The translations under genes were made by a program, and so were the position numbers. A stretch of 37,071 nucleotides of DNA from NCBI RefSeq assembly GCF_002067035.1, contig NZ_MVQB01000042.1:1-37071 (forward strand), read 5' to 3'. Positions 12,482 through 37,071 of the stretch are shown piece by piece (the stretch's first letter is position 1; each line of letters begins with the position of its first letter). This DNA is from Methanoregula sp. PtaB.Bin085 (GTDB taxonomy: Archaea > Halobacteriota > Methanomicrobia > Methanomicrobiales > Methanospirillaceae). The notes beneath the pieces were generated by a model that saw only the letters and a program-made list of their open reading frames with translations, searched no databases and was not told where the DNA came from.

Positions 12482-12930
12482 ACATGAAAACCGCGACCCG
12501 ATTTTGATCTGAAATTCGGATCGCGATTTTTCCGGAACGGTTTTTGATCGCGATCGTGATCGCGATTGCAGTTTCAAAATCGTGATCCGATTTTACAATG
12601 AAAACCGGGGATCGAGTATGATCTCAAAATTGCTGATCGTTTTTCGTACGAAAATCGGGATCCGATTTTTATGTTCCGTCTGTACTTTTTGTCTGAAAAC
12701 TGGTTTTCAATCGCGGATCGATTTGCAAATGAAAAACGGGGATCGATTTTGATCTGAAAATCGCAGATCGATTTCTGTACAAAAATCGGATCGCGATTTT
12801 TCCGGAAGGGTTTTTGATCGTGATCGCGATTGCGATCTCAAAACCGGGATCCGATTTCAAAATGTACATCGCGGATCAATTCTGAGATCAAAATCGCTGA
12901 TCGATTTTCGTACAAAACTCGCGAACCTAT
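12482..12930. repeat. GATC-dense, palindrome-rich degenerate repeat tract
   Basis: This 540-bp gap between cooS and a small membrane protein gene holds no credible gene. From 12506 to 12902 there are 22 GATC sites in 397 bp, about one per 18 bp. Two diverged copies of a unit of about 140 bp are recognisable at 12512-12655 and 12782-12918, each starting TCGGATCGCGATTTTTCCGG. Near-palindromes recur, such as AAAATCGG-GATC-CGATTTT around 12653-12670 and CGCGATC-GT-GATCGCG around 12550-12565. The tract is clearly AT-richer than the genes around it. Its function is unknown. Confidence 0.85.
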
Positions 12931-12944
12931 TGCGAAAAAAATCC

Positions 12945-19751: not shown

Positions 19752-20099
19752 TTATTCTGCGCGGGGGCCCAGGCCACAGGAAAGGAGGATGGCCTCGGCT
19801 GCTGCAAGGGCCCTGTCAGAGAGATGATGCAGGGTTTTTATCTCGTCCCCCAGTGCGATCAGCCGCAGGATATCTGCCCGGGTGAGCGTGGAGAAACAGA
19901 ACTGCTTCCAGCGGCTGCGTTCGGAGGTGTCCCAGACCTCGGTTATCACAGAGCGGAGCATGGCGCGGTCAGCCGACGTGAGCGTTCCCCATTCTGAATC
20001 CGGGGCGCGCCGGACCTTTTCCAGCGCCTCCTCAACTGCCTTGTCCCGCTCCAGCAGGTAGCGGCGTCTTCCCAGGTTGTCTTCGGTGGATGGAGACAT
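19752..20099 (-). CDS. Small helical protein of unknown function (paralogue of divergent neighbour)
   Basis: A 115-residue soluble, mostly helical protein. The frame is open further upstream (to 20198), but the Cys/Arg-rich leader is unlike the rest; I chose the ATG at 20099 (MSPSTEDNLGRRRYLL), which aligns with the start of the divergent protein at 20263-20592. Shared positions include GRR-x-Y, LT--D---L---V, W-T-----W, and ILRLI-LG near the C-terminus. No family is recognised and no catalytic motif is seen. It lies just beyond the ATP synthase promoter on the same strand, about 90 bp upstream of the subunit K start. Confidence 0.68.
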   Translation of the reverse strand: MSPSTEDNLGRRRYLLERDKAVEEALEKVRRAPDSEWGTLTSADRAMLRSVITEVWDTSERSRWKQFCFSTLTRADILRLIALGDEIKTLHHLSDRALAAAEAILLSCGLGPRAE

Positions 20100-20262
20100 G
20101 TCTCGCGTGAATCTATTCCGGTGCCGGATGATAAACTTAGTCCCGCCGTCCCGTCCGTAACACGGCACAGAAGAAGGCCTGCAGGAAGACCGCCACAAAC
20201 TATATGGGGCTGCAGAGGGACTGACTCTTCATTCCTGCAGGAGACAACAGGAGGGAGAACAG

Positions 20263-20592: not shown

Positions 20593-20630
20593 GCTTCCCG
20601 CCTTTTTTCGGGGCGTGGGCGCTGAGACGG

Positions 20631-20710
20631 TTATTCCGTTGCAACCCGCACGCACTCTTCGGTGGTGCCGATCCGGGCTGCCCCCCCGCACATGTCAGGG
20701 ACGTACGCGA
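20631..20710 (-). pseudogene. Displaced 3' end of the aconitase-X gene
   Basis: On the minus strand this 80-bp stretch encodes the last 25 residues of aconitase X (AYVPDMCGGAARIG then TTEECVRVATE) and its TAA stop. It matches the end of the intact gene (21835-21914) at 71 of 80 bases. All nine differences are in third codon positions and none changes an amino acid. The match ends abruptly near 20712, inside the codon pair that reads AF here and AL in the intact gene. It has no start and cannot make a protein by itself. Confidence 0.9.
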
Positions 20711-20768
20711 AAGCACTCTCTTTTTCAATGATTTTGTAGAAAAATGATGAAAAAAGGATGCCCTGACA

Positions 20769-20803
20769 TTTTTATACAAAATCACCAAATAATAAGTATA
20801 TTC
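20769..20803 (+). promoter_or_regulatory. AT-rich promoter region of the exported-protein gene
   Basis: Two TATA-like elements, TTTTTATAC near 20769-20777 and AAGTATATTC near 20794-20803, precede the gene at 20841. The second would give a start near 20825 and a leader of about 15 nt; the first a leader of about 45 nt. Which one works cannot be told. Confidence 0.35.
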
Positions 20804-20840
20804 GCAGTGAATACTGAAGTATCACCGTTGTGATGTTACC

Positions 20841-21746
20841 ATGAAAAGGAGTATGTTTGTTTTCAGAATCGCTCTCCTCACCATCCTGGTTACAGTATGC
20901 ATGTACCCGGTGCTGGCAGATTTCGGAGAAATTCCGGTCCGGGGTGTGATATCGAAAATAGATAAGCCGAATAACACGATTTCAATCAACACTTCAACCG
21001 GAGAGCTGACGGGAGAAGTGCCGGATCGTGTTGCACTTGATGTTTTTTTCCTCCTGGAGGATGTCGAGGCGGTATGGAGCAACAGTTCCGGCGGGAAATG
21101 GGTCACGATTGCAATCTCAGCCCCCTATTCGCGCAACCCGGCCACTCCATATTTTATCGGCGATCCAACGAAAATCACAATTCCGCTCAGCGGAGATTTT
21201 TCCCTCAATATTACCCGGTTCCCCGATTGTTCCCGTTGCAATGGTTCGATCTGTCAGGTCGCCTACGCAAACATCTCGTTGTTCAAAGAGGGGAATATGA
21301 TATCCGAGATAAGGCATTATCCGAAAGAGAACGCATCCCGTCGGTTTGAGCATAATTTTTCTTATTATGGCCGTTATTCTCATGATGCAGTCTATATCTC
21401 GTATGTATATGGCGATATGAGTTCTGAATCGTGCACAGGTGTCCCAAATACGGGTGATTGCCAGCCAAAAGAGGTTGTGGAATACTGGCATTTTACGAAT
21501 GATACTAGCTTTGCAGTCATGCATCCTGATCCGGCAACCCGGCAATGGTGGGCACTGGAATCTGAACTGGCGCCGAAGGCTGTTAATGGCAGAACCGTCG
21601 GTGCAGTAGAATACCATTTTGATCGTGTTGGCCATGATCCCGGTTTGCTCCTGACTCCCGGATACAGGTGGATGGTGATACTTCTCTGTCTTACCGGATT
21701 GGGATTACTCGCCCTCGCCATACTTGTTCGGAAGGGGAGAAAATAA
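20841..21746 (+). CDS. Exported, membrane-anchored protein of unknown function, probably acquired
   Basis: A 301-residue protein with an N-terminal signal peptide (MKRSMFVFRIALLTILVTVC, cleavage likely after VLA at about residue 27), an outside domain of about 240 residues, and one C-terminal membrane helix (about 275-297) followed by the basic stop-transfer RKGRK. Several NxT/NxS sites (NTS, NIT, NIS, NFS, NDT) suit N-glycosylation outside the cell. There are four cysteines in the middle (CSRCNGSIC, SC, DC). No known fold is recognised. Base composition is clearly AT-richer than its neighbours, and the gene lies between the intact 3' end of aconitase X and a displaced duplicate of that end, which suggests acquisition. 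Confidence 0.8.
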   Translation: MKRSMFVFRIALLTILVTVCMYPVLADFGEIPVRGVISKIDKPNNTISINTSTGELTGEVPDRVALDVFFLLEDVEAVWSNSSGGKWVTIAISAPYSRNPATPYFIGDPTKITIPLSGDFSLNITRFPDCSRCNGSICQVAYANISLFKEGNMISEIRHYPKENASRRFEHNFSYYGRYSHDAVYISYVYGDMSSESCTGVPNTGDCQPKEVVEYWHFTNDTSFAVMHPDPATRQWWALESELAPKAVNGRTVGAVEYHFDRVGHDPGLLLTPGYRWMVILLCLTGLGLLALAILVRKGRK

Positions 21747-21834
21747 TAAACGGCATGCTTTCACAGCCCGTAGCCATTTCCGGACTCTGAAAGCAGGGGG
21801 AAGGATAGTATCGCAATCCGGAATGGGATATTTT

Positions 21835-21914
21835 TTATTCCGTCGCTACCCGTACGCACTCTTCGGTCGTCCCGATCCGGGCAGCCCCCCCGCACATGTC
21901 CGGCACATACGCGA
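21835..21914 (-). repeat. Direct-repeat partner of 20631-20710 (3' end of aconitase X)
   Basis: The last 80 bp of the intact aconitase-X gene. It is repeated in the same orientation at 20631-20710 with 71 of 80 identical bases. The two copies border a 1124-bp segment (20711-21834) holding one AT-rich gene, an arrangement like the flanking repeats left when DNA integrates at the 3' end of a gene. Confidence 0.88.
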
Positions 21915-22998
21915 GCGCCTTGCCGCTGTTCACCATGATACCCTTATACCGCTCCATGACCGGCGAGACCACCATGCAGGTATCGGCATAGACCTTTGCC
22001 CCGCTTTTCTCGATCGCCTCCACGGTCTTCCGGTTACGGTCGATGACTCCCTGCGATGCAAAGACATAGAGGGGCATCTTCACCCGTTTCCCTTTGAGGA
22101 GGCGGGCGATGGCGGTGAGTTCTTCGGGCGAGCAGTGCGGGCAGCCGACGGCAACGGCCTCGACCGGCACATCTTTGAAGAGTTTTTTGATCTCCGCTCC
22201 TTCAACGGTGATCGTCTCGAGGCCCGCAATATCGTACTTGTTCTTCTTCGCTTCCGGGGTGACTCCATCAACGTGATAGAGGGCGACCGCGCCGGTCGCT
22301 GCCATCGCGGCCCCCAGCGCCTTCAGCCCGTCCCGGTCCGGCCGGATACCGGTGAAGAACGGGATGCGGTTCCCGACCAGTTTCCCGGCATGGTACCCGA
22401 GCGCCCCGTAATCCGCGATCGTCCATCCTGCGGTATCGGCTCCGACGGCAATGACCACCTGCGGCTTCCGGTTCGCCGGCAGGTGCAGGCCGTAACAGGG
22501 GGTCTTCCCTGCGAGAGCCGCGGCAAGCGCACCCGGCCCGCCCTCGCGGTTGGTCCGGGCGCCGATAACCGAATTTGCGTAACTGACCGCAGAGGACTCC
22601 GACCATGCGATATGGTCACCGAACGAGGTCTCCCGCAGGTAGTACGGCGTGCAGGTGCACTCGAGCGCGATCCCGAGCCGTGAATAGGCGGCGACAACCG
22701 CCTGCTGCTTTTCCGCAAAGTCCGGGTCAACGCCCATCTCCCGCCAGCGCCCGCGGGGCATGCCGATGGGGTTCAGTACGGCAGGTATAACCGCTTTTGC
22801 ATCGAGGCTGGAGAGCCATTCGAGGCCGTATTTCCCGATCGTCTTGTAAGACGCCCCGCTCACCTGGGCGCTCTTAATCGGAACGAGCCGTTCCGCGCCG
22901 AAGACCTTGCCGAGCGCCACGAGAAGCTCAAGCATCTTCTGCTTCGTCTCGCCCTGTTCACCGGCAAGGATCCGCTCATCATCTGGTTCGAGCTGCAT
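21835..22998 (-). CDS. Aconitase X large subunit; probable phosphomevalonate dehydratase large subunit
   Basis: A 387-residue member of the aconitase-X (DUF521) family. In archaea the large and small (DUF126) chains form phosphomevalonate dehydratase, which converts 5-phosphomevalonate to trans-anhydromevalonate 5-phosphate in the archaeal mevalonate route. Cys residues likely to hold the Fe-S cluster are in GCPHCSPEEL, DTCMVVSPV and PDMCGGAARIG; the SAQVSGASYKTIG N-terminal segment is family-typical. The assignment is strengthened by UbiD and UbiX genes directly upstream on the same strand (3-bp gap to UbiD). The small DUF126 chain is not in this window. The gene's 3' end is duplicated nearby. 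Confidence 0.88.
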   Translation of the reverse strand: MQLEPDDERILAGEQGETKQKMLELLVALGKVFGAERLVPIKSAQVSGASYKTIGKYGLEWLSSLDAKAVIPAVLNPIGMPRGRWREMGVDPDFAEKQQAVVAAYSRLGIALECTCTPYYLRETSFGDHIAWSESSAVSYANSVIGARTNREGGPGALAAALAGKTPCYGLHLPANRKPQVVIAVGADTAGWTIADYGALGYHAGKLVGNRIPFFTGIRPDRDGLKALGAAMAATGAVALYHVDGVTPEAKKNKYDIAGLETITVEGAEIKKLFKDVPVEAVAVGCPHCSPEELTAIARLLKGKRVKMPLYVFASQGVIDRNRKTVEAIEKSGAKVYADTCMVVSPVMERYKGIMVNSGKALAYVPDMCGGAARIGTTEECVRVATE

Positions 22999-23001
22999 CG
23001 T

Positions 23002-24240
23002 TCACCACGTTGCCCGGGTGAACTCCGCCTCGCGACCGAGCACCATCGTTGCATCGACCCCGATTTTGACATTGGTCCCGTCCTCGAGCTGGCATGGGTC
23101 GAGCGAGGATCCCCGTACACCGGTGATGACCATGACGTCCCGGTCGCCGCTGACGCGGGTCGCGATCGCGTATTCCACATCGTACGGGTCTTCAGGATTG
23201 ATATCCTCGTCCACCACGACCACGTGCTTGAGCGAGGTGTGGGCGGCGAAGGCCGCCATGATCGCGTTTTTGGCATCGCCCTGCGTGCTTTTCCGGATCT
23301 GGATCACGGCGTGGAGGTACCCGCAGCCACCCTTCGTGAGAACGACGTTCCGGACTTCGGTAACACCGGCCACGGCCTTGTAAATTTTCGGCTCATACGG
23401 ACAGCCCATCAGGATCTTGTGCTCGTCCCCCCCTGGCAGGATCCCGTGGTAGATGAAGTCCGGCTTCGTGTACATGCCCGTGAACTCGATGATATGCTGC
23501 ATACGGACCGGGTCGTAGGTACCGGTGATGTCCACGAACGGCCCTTCGCCGGTCGTTTCAGCGGTGATGTAGCCCTCGAGCACGATCTCGGCATCGGGAA
23601 CGCGGACGCCGTTCCGGCACCTCTTCACTTTCAGTTTCCCGCCCGTCAGCTCGGCGGCAAACGGCAGCTCCATCCCCGCGGGAACCCGGGTACAGCTCGC
23701 GAAGGTCACGGCAGGGTGCGTCCCTATCGTCACCGCGATGGGGAGTTTCTTCCCCTGAGCAAGCGCTTTCTTCAGCATCACGTGCGTGTGCCGGCCCTCA
23801 ACGAGCCGGGCCACTACACGATGATCGTCCAGCACCTGCATCCGGTGGATCGAGGCGTTCTCCACGCCGTCCCAGCAGGAGAAGACAATGCCGGAAGTGA
23901 AGTATCGGCCTGCATCCTTCGGGAAATGGTGGAGGATCGGGAGCTTCGACAGGTCAGGCTTCGTCATCTTCAGCGTACCATCGTCGATGATCTTCCCGTC
24001 ATACTTTGCGTCGGCAAGGGTCTTCACGAGCTTCTTCTCGTCAATACCGAGGGCAAGAGAGAGGGCCCTGCGGCTTGCGGTCATGTTCATGACCGCCCGG
24101 TGGCCGTCCAGGTTGTGGAAGAAGAGAAGCCTGTCCGTCCCCGCGGCCATTTTCGCTGCCTTCATGTCGTCCGAGGCCATCGCTTTCTTTACATCCGTGA
24201 CGAGCCCTGCCTTCCGCATCGATTCGATAAACTTACGCAT
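23002..24240 (-). CDS. UbiD family decarboxylase; probable anhydromevalonate phosphate decarboxylase
   Basis: A 412-residue UbiD-family enzyme that uses prenylated FMN. In the archaeal mevalonate route a UbiD homologue decarboxylates trans-anhydromevalonate phosphate to isopentenyl phosphate. Supportive segments are LAFAPKI-like metal/cofactor-loop EMPF, GPFVDITGTYDP, YHGILPGGDEHKILMG and VVVDEDINPEDPYDVEYAIATR, all typical of archaeal UbiD. The frame is open to 24276, but the ATG at 24240 (MRKFIESMRKAG) is preferred: it overlaps the UbiX stop by 8 bp and follows GGTGGTGAAG. Its position between UbiX and aconitase X supports this route over other UbiD substrates. Confidence 0.9.
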   Translation of the reverse strand: MRKFIESMRKAGLVTDVKKAMASDDMKAAKMAAGTDRLLFFHNLDGHRAVMNMTASRRALSLALGIDEKKLVKTLADAKYDGKIIDDGTLKMTKPDLSKLPILHHFPKDAGRYFTSGIVFSCWDGVENASIHRMQVLDDHRVVARLVEGRHTHVMLKKALAQGKKLPIAVTIGTHPAVTFASCTRVPAGMELPFAAELTGGKLKVKRCRNGVRVPDAEIVLEGYITAETTGEGPFVDITGTYDPVRMQHIIEFTGMYTKPDFIYHGILPGGDEHKILMGCPYEPKIYKAVAGVTEVRNVVLTKGGCGYLHAVIQIRKSTQGDAKNAIMAAFAAHTSLKHVVVVDEDINPEDPYDVEYAIATRVSGDRDVMVITGVRGSSLDPCQLEDGTNVKIGVDATMVLGREAEFTRATW

Positions 24241-24787
24241 CTTCACCACCCCATCGCTGCCCGAGATTGTGATCAACCCCGAGATGGTCGAGTACGCGGG
24301 CGACTACCATATTCACCAAGTCGTCAATTGTATCCGGCCGGTTGTAGAACCCGGGGCTTGCAGGCATGATCGTTGCCCCCGCCTCATGGGCGGCGAGCAT
24401 ATTCTTGAGGTGAATCTTCGAGAGCGGCATCTCGCGGGTGACGAGGATGCAGGTCCGGCCTTCCTTAAGGCAGACGTCCGCTGTGCGGGTGATGAGGTTG
24501 TCGGCATACCCGTTCGCGATCGCCGCGAGGGTCTTGGAACTGCACGGGATCACGACCATGCCGTCATACCGGTGCGACCCGCTCGCGATCGAAGCGAAGA
24601 GCTTGTCGTTCGCGTGGTACTCGGCTTTCAGGCCCCTGAACGAGACACCTTCGTGGGCAGCAATCTTTTCTGCCACCTCAGAGACAATGAGGTGGACCTT
24701 TACATTCTTACAGAGCACCTCGAGCAGGCGCCGGGCATAGATCGCCCCGCTTGCACCGGTCACCCCGACAACGATCTCTTTTTTCAT
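24233..24787 (-). CDS. ubiX: UbiX family flavin prenyltransferase
   Basis: A 184-residue flavoprotein that makes prenylated FMN, the cofactor required by UbiD. Family motifs are the N-terminal VGVTGASGAIYARRLLE, the middle VVIPCSSKTLAAIANGYADNLITRTADVCLKE, and the REMPLSKIHLKNMLAAHEAGATIMPASPGFY segment. It overlaps the downstream UbiD gene by 8 bp. It is the first gene of a UbiX-UbiD-aconitase X operon, so cofactor synthesis is coupled to its user. A weak TATA-like element about 110 bp upstream (near 24889-24899) could drive the operon with a long leader. Confidence 0.96.
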   Translation of the reverse strand: MKKEIVVGVTGASGAIYARRLLEVLCKNVKVHLIVSEVAEKIAAHEGVSFRGLKAEYHANDKLFASIASGSHRYDGMVVIPCSSKTLAAIANGYADNLITRTADVCLKEGRTCILVTREMPLSKIHLKNMLAAHEAGATIMPASPGFYNRPDTIDDLVNMVVARVLDHLGVDHNLGQRWGGEDA

Positions 24788-32822: not shown

Positions 32823-32870
32823 ATGGTGCAGTTCCCGTACGGGCACTTCCGGGACTGCACCATTTTTTTT
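32823..32870 (+). terminator. Hairpin-plus-T8 terminator after ilvA
   Basis: ATGGTGCAGTTCCCG (32823-32837) pairs with CGGGACTGCACCAT (32850-32863) with one bulged T, a stem of about 13-14 bp, followed by eight T. This is a bacterial-style intrinsic terminator, unusually strong for an archaeon. It also lies directly upstream of the promoter of the first Cys-rich surface protein. Confidence 0.75.
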
Positions 32871-32883
32871 GGGATCGCAACAT

Positions 32884-32890
32884 TCATATA
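32884..32890 (+). promoter_or_regulatory. TATA-like element of the first Cys-rich protein gene
   Basis: TCATATA at 32884-32890 would put the transcript start near 32912 and leave a leader of about 26 nt before the GTG at 32938. The corresponding place before the second gene reads AAATATT (34886-34892). Confidence 0.45.
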
Positions 32891-32900
32891 CTGCTTTTTA

Positions 32901-32956
32901 TTCACTGTTGCACATCACAGTGTGGGTGGTATGCCTTGTGAACCAACGTTTGTTAT
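32901..32956 (+). repeat. Leader/start module, copy 1
   Basis: A 56-bp stretch spanning the 5' leader, GGGTGGT ribosome binding site, GTG start and first six codons of the Cys-rich gene. It is repeated at 34900-34955 with only three differences. It contains the small inverted repeat CACA-G-TGTG and half of the palindrome TGTTG-CA-CAACA, complete in copy 2. Confidence 0.85.
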
Positions 32957-34815
32957 TTTCCGGAATGGGTATCCTGATTCTCGTATCGCTTCTTTCCGGT
33001 CCCGCCCTTGGGGCAGCGTTCTCATCGATTGAGACCTGTCCCTCGTCCTGCTCCTGCCTGTTACCGGCAGAAGCGGCAAAGATCAACGCCCCCGGCCTCT
33101 GTGGCGGTACGCAGATGGTCTGCGGGTCTGAAGGGAAGATTTCGAAATACTGTTATGCCAGATCGGTAAAGGTGACTGTGACCACAACCCTGCCGCAGCT
33201 GCGCGTAACCGGGGTCCGTCCCGTACCAACGACCGAGCCGGTTTACGTGAAGTGTTCGCCCGGCTGTTCCTGTTTATTTGAGCCGCTCGGTGAGATGGGA
33301 CATCTCAGTTTGTGCGGCGGGGTACAGAGCCTGTGCGGCATGGACCAGAACGGTGTGAAAAAATACTGCTATGTCACACCGCCGCAAACTCCTTCGGATG
33401 TGACAACGCTCATCACAAGGACATCTGGCATCCCGGCGGCCACGAGCGTTCCGACATCCGTTCCGCCGCCAACCGCGCCAAAATCCGCGCCTTCAGCAGC
33501 GATTAGGGCTGTACAAGTCGTCCCCCTGCAGAACCTGTCATCATGCGCTGCCGGCTGTGCCTGCCTCCTGCCGGCAGATGCTGGTGCAAAAGGCCTGAAG
33601 TACTGTAACGGTAAACAGACCCCGTGCACGGCCGCACCGGCAGAGGGAGCTCTTTTTGGGACCACTGAAGATAAGGTAACACGGTATTGCTACAGCATGC
33701 TGGCCGGGAACTCCAGCCCCGCCCCGGTCCTGATCCCGGCTGTTATTAAAACGACACCAATCCCGATTCCGCCCGGTCCAGGCATTGCTTCATCCGCTTC
33801 AGGAGGTAATGAGGACGCGGGTCTTCTCTCGATGGTCGGTGTTTTCTTCTCATCAGTTCTGGGAGGTCGCCCACAGGAATCGCCAATCAGGCAGGCCTCC
33901 CTTTCCATGTGCAGGATGCGTTTCGGTCTTGACACCTGTACTGACGGATGTGTCAACCTCTCAACAGATCCCGATAACTGTGGTTCCTGCGGGCACTGGT
34001 GCAGATCCGGTGAACGGTGTGTCGGGGGCCGGTGCAGTGACTTTATGTCAGATCCTGCCAACTGCGGCGGGACAGGAAATATCTGTCCTGCGGGTGCACC
34101 CTGCATCGAAGGGTACTGTTCGGCTCTTGGCTGTCTTGACTCTCTCCTGACTGATTGTAATAATACGTGTGTTGTGACCAGTCGCGACTCCCAAAACTGC
34201 GGTGCGTGCGGGAATGCCTGCCCTGCAGGACAGTACTGCTTCCGGGGAAACTGTACTTCCTGCGAGAATAGTGGCGAGATCTCCTGCACGGCGAGCGATG
34301 GTGATTACTCAGTATGCACAGATATCTCCACGGATCGGAATAACTGCGGCGAATGCCAGCACGCCTGTGGTTCTCATGAGGTTTGCAGTGGTGGTATCTG
34401 CGAAGAGTGCCCCGCAGGTACCGAATTCTGTCATGGGGAATGCGTGAACTTCAATACAAGCAGCTATAACTGTGGTGGATGCGGCCGTTCATGTGGATAC
34501 GCCCAGACTTGCCAAGATGGTGCCTGCCGGTGCGATCCTCCGTTAACCCTGTGCAGCGGGCAGTGCGTGGATTTGAATACCAGTGTGACCAGTTGTGGTA
34601 TTTGCAACAGACGCTGCCCTGGTACGACGATGTGCAGCGGGAGGAGATGCACGGACTGCCCGGTCGGATCGGATGGATATGCACTCTGTAGCATTGATGG
34701 CGTTATGACCTGCGTGAGCACAAATACCGACAGAATGAATTGCGGATATTGCGGGATACGATGCGGTTATGGAGCGGTCTGCATCGATGGTATGTGTCGT
34801 TTTCCCGGAGGATGA
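32938..34815 (+). CDS. Secreted Cys-rich repeat protein with three six-Cys modules
   Basis: A 625-residue secreted protein. The GTG start at 32938 is chosen because the same GTG, ribosome binding site (GGGTGGT) and signal peptide (NQRLLFSGMGILILVSLLSG) recur in the next gene; open frame upstream to 32869 is non-coding in the paralogue. Domains: signal peptide (1-28), then three modules of pattern CxxxCxCL...LCxGxQxxC...KYCY at residues 34-73, 106-145 and 203-252, joined by Thr/Pro-rich linkers; then about 300 residues of repeats (C-V-D/N-L-N/S-T--D-NCG-CG--C--G--C--G-C), as in Cys-rich surface proteins of other microbes. No membrane anchor or sorting tail is seen; it ends CRFPGG. Probably a disulfide-rich surface or extracellular protein of unknown role. 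Confidence 0.85.
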   Translation: MNQRLLFSGMGILILVSLLSGPALGAAFSSIETCPSSCSCLLPAEAAKINAPGLCGGTQMVCGSEGKISKYCYARSVKVTVTTTLPQLRVTGVRPVPTTEPVYVKCSPGCSCLFEPLGEMGHLSLCGGVQSLCGMDQNGVKKYCYVTPPQTPSDVTTLITRTSGIPAATSVPTSVPPPTAPKSAPSAAIRAVQVVPLQNLSSCAAGCACLLPADAGAKGLKYCNGKQTPCTAAPAEGALFGTTEDKVTRYCYSMLAGNSSPAPVLIPAVIKTTPIPIPPGPGIASSASGGNEDAGLLSMVGVFFSSVLGGRPQESPIRQASLSMCRMRFGLDTCTDGCVNLSTDPDNCGSCGHWCRSGERCVGGRCSDFMSDPANCGGTGNICPAGAPCIEGYCSALGCLDSLLTDCNNTCVVTSRDSQNCGACGNACPAGQYCFRGNCTSCENSGEISCTASDGDYSVCTDISTDRNNCGECQHACGSHEVCSGGICEECPAGTEFCHGECVNFNTSSYNCGGCGRSCGYAQTCQDGACRCDPPLTLCSGQCVDLNTSVTSCGICNRRCPGTTMCSGRRCTDCPVGSDGYALCSIDGVMTCVSTNTDRMNCGYCGIRCGYGAVCIDGMCRFPGG

Positions 34816-34839: not shown

Positions 34840-34867
34840 CGGTCTCTTAGGGACACTGTACCTTTTT
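34840..34867 (+). terminator. Hairpin and T5 upstream of second Cys-rich gene
   Basis: GGTGC and GTCTC pair with GGGAC and GTACC around a TTA loop, followed by five T (34863-34867). It is a weaker counterpart of the strong hairpin at 32823-32870 and stands at the same place relative to the promoter, so the duplication seems to include it. Confidence 0.4.
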
Positions 34868-34899
34868 CCGGAACCGAAATGCTGAAATATTCCTTTCAA

Positions 34900-34955
34900 T
34901 TCATTGTTGCACAACACAGTGTGGGTGGTATGCCTTGTGAGCCAACGTTTGTTAT
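34900..34955 (+). repeat. Leader/start module, copy 2
   Basis: 53 of 56 bases are identical to 32901-32956. It includes the palindrome TGTTGCACAACA, the CACAGTGTG inverted repeat, the GGGTGGT ribosome binding site and the GTG start of the second Cys-rich gene. Confidence 0.88.
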
Positions 34956-37071
34956 GCTATGGAGTATCGATTCTGATCCTTATATCGCTCCTCGCTGTTC
35001 CCGCATCTGCCGCCACCATCCTTTGTCCCTCGTCCTGTTCCTGCCTTCTCCCTGCCGAGGCACAGAAGATGGGATACAATGATCTTTGCGGTGGAAAGCA
35101 GACAATCTGCGCATCTGACGGGAAAACTGCGAAGTACTGCTATGCAATACCGGTAACGGTCACGACAACAGCTGCGATCCCGGTCTCCTGCTCCCGGGGC
35201 TGTTCCTGTTATACGCTTGAAAGCGGGAAGCAGCTGGGTGTCGGCCTGTGCAATAACCAGCTGACCCTCTGCGGGTACAGCCAGACCCGGCAGCCCATGT
35301 ACTGCCACAAGAGCCCGGAGACAGTAACCACGACGACACCGGTTCCCGTGACCGGAACCCCTGACCTTATCATCAGTGATGTGTATACCGAGGCCTGGCC
35401 CACGTACCGGATCTTCCGGTATATGATTCAGAACCGTGGCAGCGGCGTTGCCGGTCCGAGCACTACCCGGCTCTTTATCGACGGGGTTCAGGTCGGGGAG
35501 GACTCCGTTGCCTCGCTGAACCCCGGGGAATACCGGGTTGAGGAGTTCTCCTACAGCGGGACCTGTTCTGGCAGCTCCGATCTCTTCGGTGCCGTTGCAG
35601 ATATCGGGGGGGCCGTGGCCGAATCCGATGAAACGAACAATGTGCGGCAGCGCGAGTATACCTGCCCTGCCGTGACCATCGTGCCCGATCTCGAACTGCT
35701 GGACATCTGGCATGCTGGAGAGAGCAACTTCACGTACGGGACCCGTACGTATACGCCGCTCGAGAATATCCGGTTCCACATGAGGAGCCGCAATACCTCC
35801 GGGGCGCTCTCGGCGGACGCCCGGCTCTATATCGATGGAACCTGGGTTTCCACAACAACAGCTACGGCATCAACATCCCGTGACTCCGGATGGGAAGGGC
35901 AGTTCGGGTACCGCGGCATCTGCTCGGGCACGTCGGACACTATCCGTGTTGTCATCGATTATGCAGACACGCTGATCGAGCAGAACGAATCCAACAACGA
36001 GCTGACCGTAACCTGGAACTGCTCGGTCATGCCTACATCTGGACAGCAGCCGGACCTTGTCATCCGCCGGTACTGGACGTCCCCCCTCGCAAATTACACC
36101 CGGAAGATAGGGTACGAGATAAAGAACCAGGGGAAAGAGTACAGCCCGTTCACCGAGACCGGGCTTTTCATTGAAGGAGTTTTCCAGATCCAGGATGGTG
36201 TCAATCCGCTTGCACCGGGCGAATCCCGGGAGGAAGAGTTCTGGCAGAACTACTCCTACCGGACCTGCACGGGCGCGTCCGACACCATCCGCATTGTTGC
36301 CGACCATGACAACCGGGTAACGGAGATGGACGAGACCAACAATGCCGATTCTTTCGACCTGACCTGCATGGATATCCCGGCACCGGTTACCCCGAAACCC
36401 GACCTCATCATCAGTAACGTCTTCTACGAGTGCACGCCCCCGTGCCGCGATTATGTTATCAGATATACGATCCGGAACCAGGGAACCTCCCCCGCCGGGA
36501 TCTCGGTGACCGGCCTGAACATCAACTACCGCAATATCGGGACAGGCAATGCCCCCCTCCTGGAACCCGGGACGTCGCAGACGCTGACCTTCCCCGGCAC
36601 GTGGAGGCCGGCATATCCCGAGAACCGTGTCGAGGTCTGTGCTGATCGCAACAATGACGTGGACGAGATCACCCCCGCACCGAGCCGGGAGCTGAACAAC
36701 TGCCTTAACACGACCTGGAGTTTCAATTTCACCTGTGACAACAATGTTCAGGACCGCGACGAGACCGGCATCGACTGCGGCGGGAGTTACTGCCCGCCCT
36801 GCGCAGCGTGCTCGACAGGTGCAAAGTGGGCTCCTGCGGATACCCCCTGCTCCCACGCCTGGCCCACCGATGACGGGCCGACCATCGGCATGAACACCGA
36901 GTCGGACTCCTGCGATCTCATCGAGGTCTGCAACCCGTCACTGGACTACATTGTCCGCGATGCCATCATCTGCGCCGAGCATGCCGATTTCGAGAGCCGG
37001 TATACCGGGACACGATCTGCCGAACGGACATGTGCATGCCGCCTTGCGCGGGCTGAGTCCGGTATTGATAC
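34937..37071 (+). CDS. Large secreted protein: two six-Cys modules then CARDB repeats (partial, runs off the window)
   Basis: An open frame from GTG at 34937 to the window edge without a stop (711 codons seen). The start is fixed by the leader shared with the upstream paralogue. Order: signal peptide (VSILILISLLAVPASA, to about residue 26); two six-Cys modules at 30-69 (KYCY) and 85-124; a Thr/Pro linker; then four CARDB-like beta domains of about 100 residues each, beginning PDLIISDVY (from residue 142), PDLELLDIW, PDLVIRRYW and PDLIISNVF. Each of the first three ends with a D/ESDETNN- or ESNN-type segment and a Cys. Next is a Cys-rich part (ETGIDCGGSYCPPC) and the start of another domain (DSCDLIEVCNPSLDYIVRDA). 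CARDB domains are cell-adhesion related. It is a surface or secreted protein. Confidence 0.88.
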   Translation, partial: MSQRLLCYGVSILILISLLAVPASAATILCPSSCSCLLPAEAQKMGYNDLCGGKQTICASDGKTAKYCYAIPVTVTTTAAIPVSCSRGCSCYTLESGKQLGVGLCNNQLTLCGYSQTRQPMYCHKSPETVTTTTPVPVTGTPDLIISDVYTEAWPTYRIFRYMIQNRGSGVAGPSTTRLFIDGVQVGEDSVASLNPGEYRVEEFSYSGTCSGSSDLFGAVADIGGAVAESDETNNVRQREYTCPAVTIVPDLELLDIWHAGESNFTYGTRTYTPLENIRFHMRSRNTSGALSADARLYIDGTWVSTTTATASTSRDSGWEGQFGYRGICSGTSDTIRVVIDYADTLIEQNESNNELTVTWNCSVMPTSGQQPDLVIRRYWTSPLANYTRKIGYEIKNQGKEYSPFTETGLFIEGVFQIQDGVNPLAPGESREEEFWQNYSYRTCTGASDTIRIVADHDNRVTEMDETNNADSFDLTCMDIPAPVTPKPDLIISNVFYECTPPCRDYVIRYTIRNQGTSPAGISVTGLNINYRNIGTGNAPLLEPGTSQTLTFPGTWRPAYPENRVEVCADRNNDVDEITPAPSRELNNCLNTTWSFNFTCDNNVQDRDETGIDCGGSYCPPCAACSTGAKWAPADTPCSHAWPTDDGPTIGMNTESDSCDLIEVCNPSLDYIVRDAIICAEHADFESRYTGTRSAERTCACRLARAESGID

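Follow-up and report, generated by a model that had tools for sequence, protein, structure and literature searches.

In the genome of Methanoregula sp. PtaB.Bin085 the 3' end of the aconitase X gene (acnX) occurs twice in the same orientation, once on the working gene and once on its own beyond a short AT-rich segment. The question raised by this locus is which of the two ends is the original one, and how the locus came to hold both. The window analysed here is one complete 37-kb contig (37,071 nucleotides) of a 2.9-Mb genome in 63 contigs, which was taken to be metagenome-assembled. The features discussed are collected in Table 1.

Table 1. Features of the acnX locus in the window and of comparable spacers in relatives (positions with an L number refer to a relative's locus)
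Feature	Position	Strand	Description
P3	20263-20592	+	Conserved gene, 109 aa; ancestral tail-to-tail neighbour of acnX
Residual native spacer	20593-20630		38 bp, up to the old acnX end; the P3 stop is followed by a T-run, as in relatives
Copy 1	20631-20710	-	Displaced old acnX 3' end, 25 codons and stop; direct repeat with silent-only differences, adjacent to P3
AT-rich leader of P2	20711-20840	+	Assigned from sequence and GC profile
P2	20841-21746	+	Probably imported gene, 301 aa; predicted exported, C-terminally membrane-anchored
New spacer	21747-21834		From P2 to the present acnX end; no significant similarity to the spacers of 29 relatives
Copy 2	21835-21914	-	Present working acnX 3' end; putatively of sister-lineage origin
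acnX (aconitase X)	21835-22998	-	Intact, 387 aa; PF04412, E 2e-151
UbiD-family decarboxylase	23002-24276	-	PF01977; conserved upstream neighbour of acnX, order kept in relatives
UbiX-family flavin prenyltransferase	24233-24787	-	TIGR00421
Cargo-bearing acnX-P3 spacers of relatives	L152 3749-7411; L151 7962-9487; L064 7162-9538; L051 7165-8020
Replaced spacer and last ~24 acnX codons, G069/G070 (L149/L150)	L149 6942-7163

The repeated 3' end of acnX

A whole-genome search found full-length acnX as a single copy, and its nearest counterparts are Methanoregula genes with 83% protein identity. In the established archaeal mevalonate pathway acnX encodes the large subunit of phosphomevalonate dehydratase, and with the UbiD and UbiX genes it makes up the set for dehydration and decarboxylation of phosphomevalonate. 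The order archaeal ATPase subunits-P3-acnX-UbiD-UbiX recurs in several genomes of the genus that are complete or nearly so.

A repeat search of the window aligned the two ends over 80 nt without gaps, with 71 of the 80 positions identical, so that the repeat with nine synonymous differences claimed in a preliminary description of this DNA is confirmed to the nucleotide. Read on the minus strand, both copies give the same peptide, AYVPDMCGGAARIGTTEECVRVATE, followed by a TAA stop, and each of the nine differences changes a third codon position silently. One edge of the similarity falls exactly at the stop codon and the other at or just past a pair of Ala-Tyr codons. The degree of identity together with the silent-only changes rules out a chance repeat. 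A freely decaying duplicate is ruled out by the same pattern, as nine silent changes out of nine have a probability of about 1e-5 if both copies drifted freely after duplication and of about 6e-4 if the short copy 1 alone did so. Copy 1 lies in an open frame of 46 codons with no ATG, GTG or TTG upstream of the repeat, and is thus not an expressed ORF.

Since the window is a whole contig of a metagenome-assembled genome, two strains may in principle have been joined at this point. The longest exact run shared by the two copies is 17 nt, shorter than the usual assembly k-mers, there is no run of N, and synteny is continuous on both sides; an artefact of this kind is barely credible.

Self-comparison of the window and of about 80 loci from relatives, in search of the same pattern, gave only two other hits, of which one (L036) is a scaffold-gap artefact and the other (L102) a low-complexity-like tail that is not comparable. 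The window contains further repeats elsewhere. A non-coding repeat of about 132 bp, rich in GATCGCGAT, stands in three tandem copies at 12485-12931, and two neighbouring genes, probably paralogues, start with stretches that are 75-77% identical (32864-33083 and 34863-35070). The ORF at 32869-34815 matches a plant STIG1-like family in Pfam (E 1e-29), which is probably a match to a cysteine-rich repeat.

The ancestral junction and the inserted segment

An orthologue of P3, 56-68% identical, adjoins acnX in most loci of the genus; P3 itself has no match in Pfam or NCBIfam. Among relatives, 17 of 29 distinct acnX-P3 spacers measure 22-82 bp, and most of the relatives with a spacer of this size have a poly-A/T run beside P3. 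The window has 38 bp between P3 and copy 1 and 1.24 kb between P3 and the acnX stop now in use; old and new end are 1,204 bp apart. As copy 1 stands from P3 at the distance at which the acnX end stands in relatives, copy 1 marks the ancestral position of that end. P3 and a 148-aa minus-strand ORF at 19752-20198 are apparently distant, divergently transcribed paralogues, P3 being about 25-30% identical to the versions of the ORF in relatives.

Empty sites are common, as none of the 29 distinct spacers contains a tail duplication. In the 108 genomes of the family that were searched, acnX is present in 102, and a separate displaced acnX tail is found in this genome only; the few second acnX matches in family genomes are all contig-broken pieces or paralogues of about 32% identity. 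No counterpart of the 1.1-kb segment was found in the acnX-P3 spacer of any relative. The segment was inserted within the 3' end of acnX in this lineage only. The preliminary description had proposed that an imported, diverged end restored acnX and displaced the old one, and this is supported by the synteny with P3 and by the distribution of the tail, with empty sites all around and a displaced tail in one of the 102 acnX-bearing genomes. Its account of what lies between the copies, AT-richer DNA with one gene for an exported protein, also holds: the segment of 1,124 bp has 46.4% GC against 59.0% for the contig, which places it among the four lowest of 719 windows, and P2 is its single ORF. 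The GC3 of P2 is 0.50, against 0.57-0.88 in the 17 other ORFs of the window that were compared.

The product of P2 has a signal-like N-terminal helix and a C-terminal membrane helix. Fold prediction from the single sequence was poor (pLDDT 42) and suggests, at low confidence, a mostly beta protein. Reading by eye, we noted a TATA-like candidate stretch near 20770-20779 in the leader. Searches of PDB, Pfam, NCBIfam, phage and viral collections gave no match to P2, which is a divergent member of a family of exported proteins present in many genomes of the Methanomicrobiales; it is 22-27% identical to members of this family, which are mostly 35-90% identical among themselves. The usual family member of the genus has a conserved place beside a gene resembling the metallo-beta-lactamase fold, whose product looks, from its sequence, like an enzyme of that fold. 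In the present genome this place is empty (L153 12371-13122; G000:C60 about 112370-113121), and P2 is the sole family member found. Because the family's usual place is empty and its one member found here is divergent, P2 is probably foreign and not a moved copy. The empty place itself is filled with AT-rich repeated motifs.

The two tails differ from each other about as much as those of neighbouring species do. Between the two copies, nine of the 24 silently variable codons differ (0.375), as against 0.36 of such codons between acnX of the window and that of the nearest sampled species. Pairs of sister species have comparable tails, one pair (L037 and L044) with 11 silent and no amino-acid changes. 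The absence of any amino-acid change between copies 1 and 2 falls at the conserved end of the range seen in relatives. Both copies share a CGGAA motif that occurs in no relative, and this signature points to close lineages as the source of both; by sequence the tails resemble a pair of orthologues, each from a close lineage outside the sample. That copy 1 carries no sign of decay argues for a fairly recent event.

Synonymous-only divergence and a shared CGGAA motif would also follow if all or most of acnX had long ago been duplicated in tandem, with both copies at work for a while and one later cut to its last 80 bp as P2 arrived. Three events would be needed, and two near-identical acnX genes occur in no genome of the family; we regard such a history as very improbable.

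Variability of the acnX-P3 spacer and proposed origins of the segment

Across the genus, the spacer between acnX and P3 is hypervariable and serves as a cargo spot. Its length ranges from 22 to 841 bp and reaches 1.5 kb (G068) and 3.7 kb (G071), and its contents vary by species, with genes for PEGA-domain, response-regulator, MFS, PHO4, DUF5946 and lipoprotein-like proteins; the PHO4 gene is found in G067, where P3 is absent. These cargo ORFs are ordinary genes, and no acnX tail was found inside the cargo-bearing spacers of relatives.

A comparison of two sister complete genomes, G069 and G070, shows a spacer replaced together with the end of acnX. These genomes are about 95% identical across most of 15 kb, against only 38-61% in the acnX-P3 spacer and about 80-84% in the acnX 3' end. 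Of the last 24 acnX codons 11 differ, compared with 45 of the remaining 363, and no other window of the gene diverges as much as these 24 codons (scan p about 0.01). The replacement left no duplicate tail behind, which is what homologous recombination in a flanking gene would give. The divergent block begins at the same Tyr-Val codons as the repeat of the window; nowhere is the gene more conserved than in the codons just before the block, which may mask its edge. Comparison of these sequences is suggestive of a related, scarless tail exchange. One could go further and propose that cargo exchange in Methanoregula takes place preferentially and precisely at the 3' end of acnX, where cassettes carrying their own acnX tail swap at conserved Ala-Tyr-Val codons without a cassette integrase, but we think this quite improbable.

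We favour, at about an even chance, an account in which DNA of a sister lineage recombined through acnX homology and was joined without homology on its other side. Such DNA, from the same genus, would have entered the cell from a donor in which P2 already lay just downstream of acnX, and would have recombined with the resident chromosome through the homology of the two acnX genes. On the far side there would have been no crossover in P3, and a non-homologous join would have fallen inside the resident acnX, in its last ~80 bp. The product would be a working acnX with an imported 3' end, the cargo gene P2, and the old end stranded beside P3. The spot may be exchanged repeatedly in this manner, normally as a clean swap without a scar, as perhaps in G069 and G070, and the window would then preserve an aberrant product. 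Bacterial hotspots without mobile elements are known to renew their content by recombination in the core genes beside them (PMC5635113), and joining by homology on one side only has been described (PMC3240628). Against this account, a random join that left just the last 80 of the 1,164 bp of acnX would be somewhat lucky, and the raised tail divergence, clear in G069/G070, is weak or absent in the other sister pairs.

Attachment sites of about 80 bp are normal for integrative elements. A decayed element, which used the acnX 3' end as its attachment site, carried its own version of that end and later lost its integrase and most of its length by deletion, with both attachment sites and one cargo gene left over, would give the same size and a sharp edge at a conserved codon, and selection to restore the host protein would fit the absence of any amino-acid change. 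The anatomy is that of e14 in icd, where a 165-bp tail duplication with 12 differences leaves the reading frame intact (PMC11148124). Archaeal elements are also known in the 3' ends of protein genes, which hold 14 of 68 integrated elements in Thaumarchaeota (PMC6563490), and elements that have decayed but retain the two att sites form an accepted class (PMC5704250). The preliminary description had likened the locus to integrative elements while finding no integrase in the segment. The latter is correct, since neither an integrase nor a transposase gene is found there, and no integrase is encoded on the contig. The likeness itself is one of anatomy and is not supported as a mechanism. Direct repeats stand at both ends of the segment, one of them completing acnX, and empty sites exist; the integrase, viral tails and repeated use of the site are missing. 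The nearest tyrosine integrase found in the genus, where many contigs are short, lies about 36 kb from an acnX gene, and no related integrase or parent element for these ends was found in the genus or in viral collections. IMG/VR and phage records contain no acnX tail, and the only plasmid matches are ordinary bacterial aconitase X genes (Paracoccus and Sulfitobacter plasmids). The site is used in no second genome, with no other displaced tail in the 102 acnX-bearing genomes of the family, and P2 is of a protein family encoded on chromosomes, for which phage and viral collections gave no match. Taken together, a decayed element is a serious but unlikely source of the segment.

The direction of the exchange is not fixed by the sequence, and the same anatomy would result if acnX with copy 2 and P2 were resident and the P3 side with copy 1 had been imported from a lineage lacking P2 and joined inside the incoming acnX tail. 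Copy 2 is indeed slightly nearer to the relatives than copy 1 (mean 7.9 against 9.8 synonymous differences), a small difference that could come from codon bias. The compositional outlier, however, is P2, whereas P3 is ordinary for the genus, and we consider this mirror-image course improbable. A one-sided homologous exchange with copy 2 as the incoming end remains the account that we favour.

Meaning of the locus and comparison with known systems

Read as a one-sided exchange, the window would show cargo exchange in a methanogenic archaeon at an intermediate and still readable stage. Its scar would mean that the tracts exchanged reach into an essential isoprenoid gene, and that the cell tolerates this since the protein encoded by the incoming end is unchanged. 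The idea of integrase-free, recombination-driven cargo spots, as described in bacteria, would then apply to an archaeal genus too, and duplicated gene tails differing at silent sites may serve as a signature for finding further cases.

The e14 element of E. coli K-12 resembles the locus in its insertion into the 3' end of a core metabolic gene, with the frame restored and the old end displaced, and in ends that differ mostly at silent sites (12 changes over 165 bp in e14, nine over 80 bp here). It differs in that e14 has an integrase and prophage genes, whereas the segment of the window has one cargo gene and no recombinase. CIMEs, or cis-mobilizable elements (PMC5704250), likewise hold cargo between two related gene-end repeats with no integrase, but the window has no sign of a parent element or of a site-recognising integrase. 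The cargo hotspots described in bacteria in 2017 (PMC5635113) share with the acnX-P3 spacer variable cargo between conserved genes, the absence of a mobile element and perhaps a raised divergence of the flanking gene end, clear here in one sister pair and weak across the others; they are bacterial, and a clean double crossover leaves no duplicate of a gene tail, which is the special feature of the window. Homology-facilitated illegitimate recombination (PMC3240628), with one homologous and one non-homologous end, would yield exactly the structure of the window, although it was studied experimentally in bacteria and is here deduced from the end product. Against these systems the event looks unusual but of a known kind, a clear mark left by ordinary exchange of DNA where the genome is variable, and not a new kind of mobile element.
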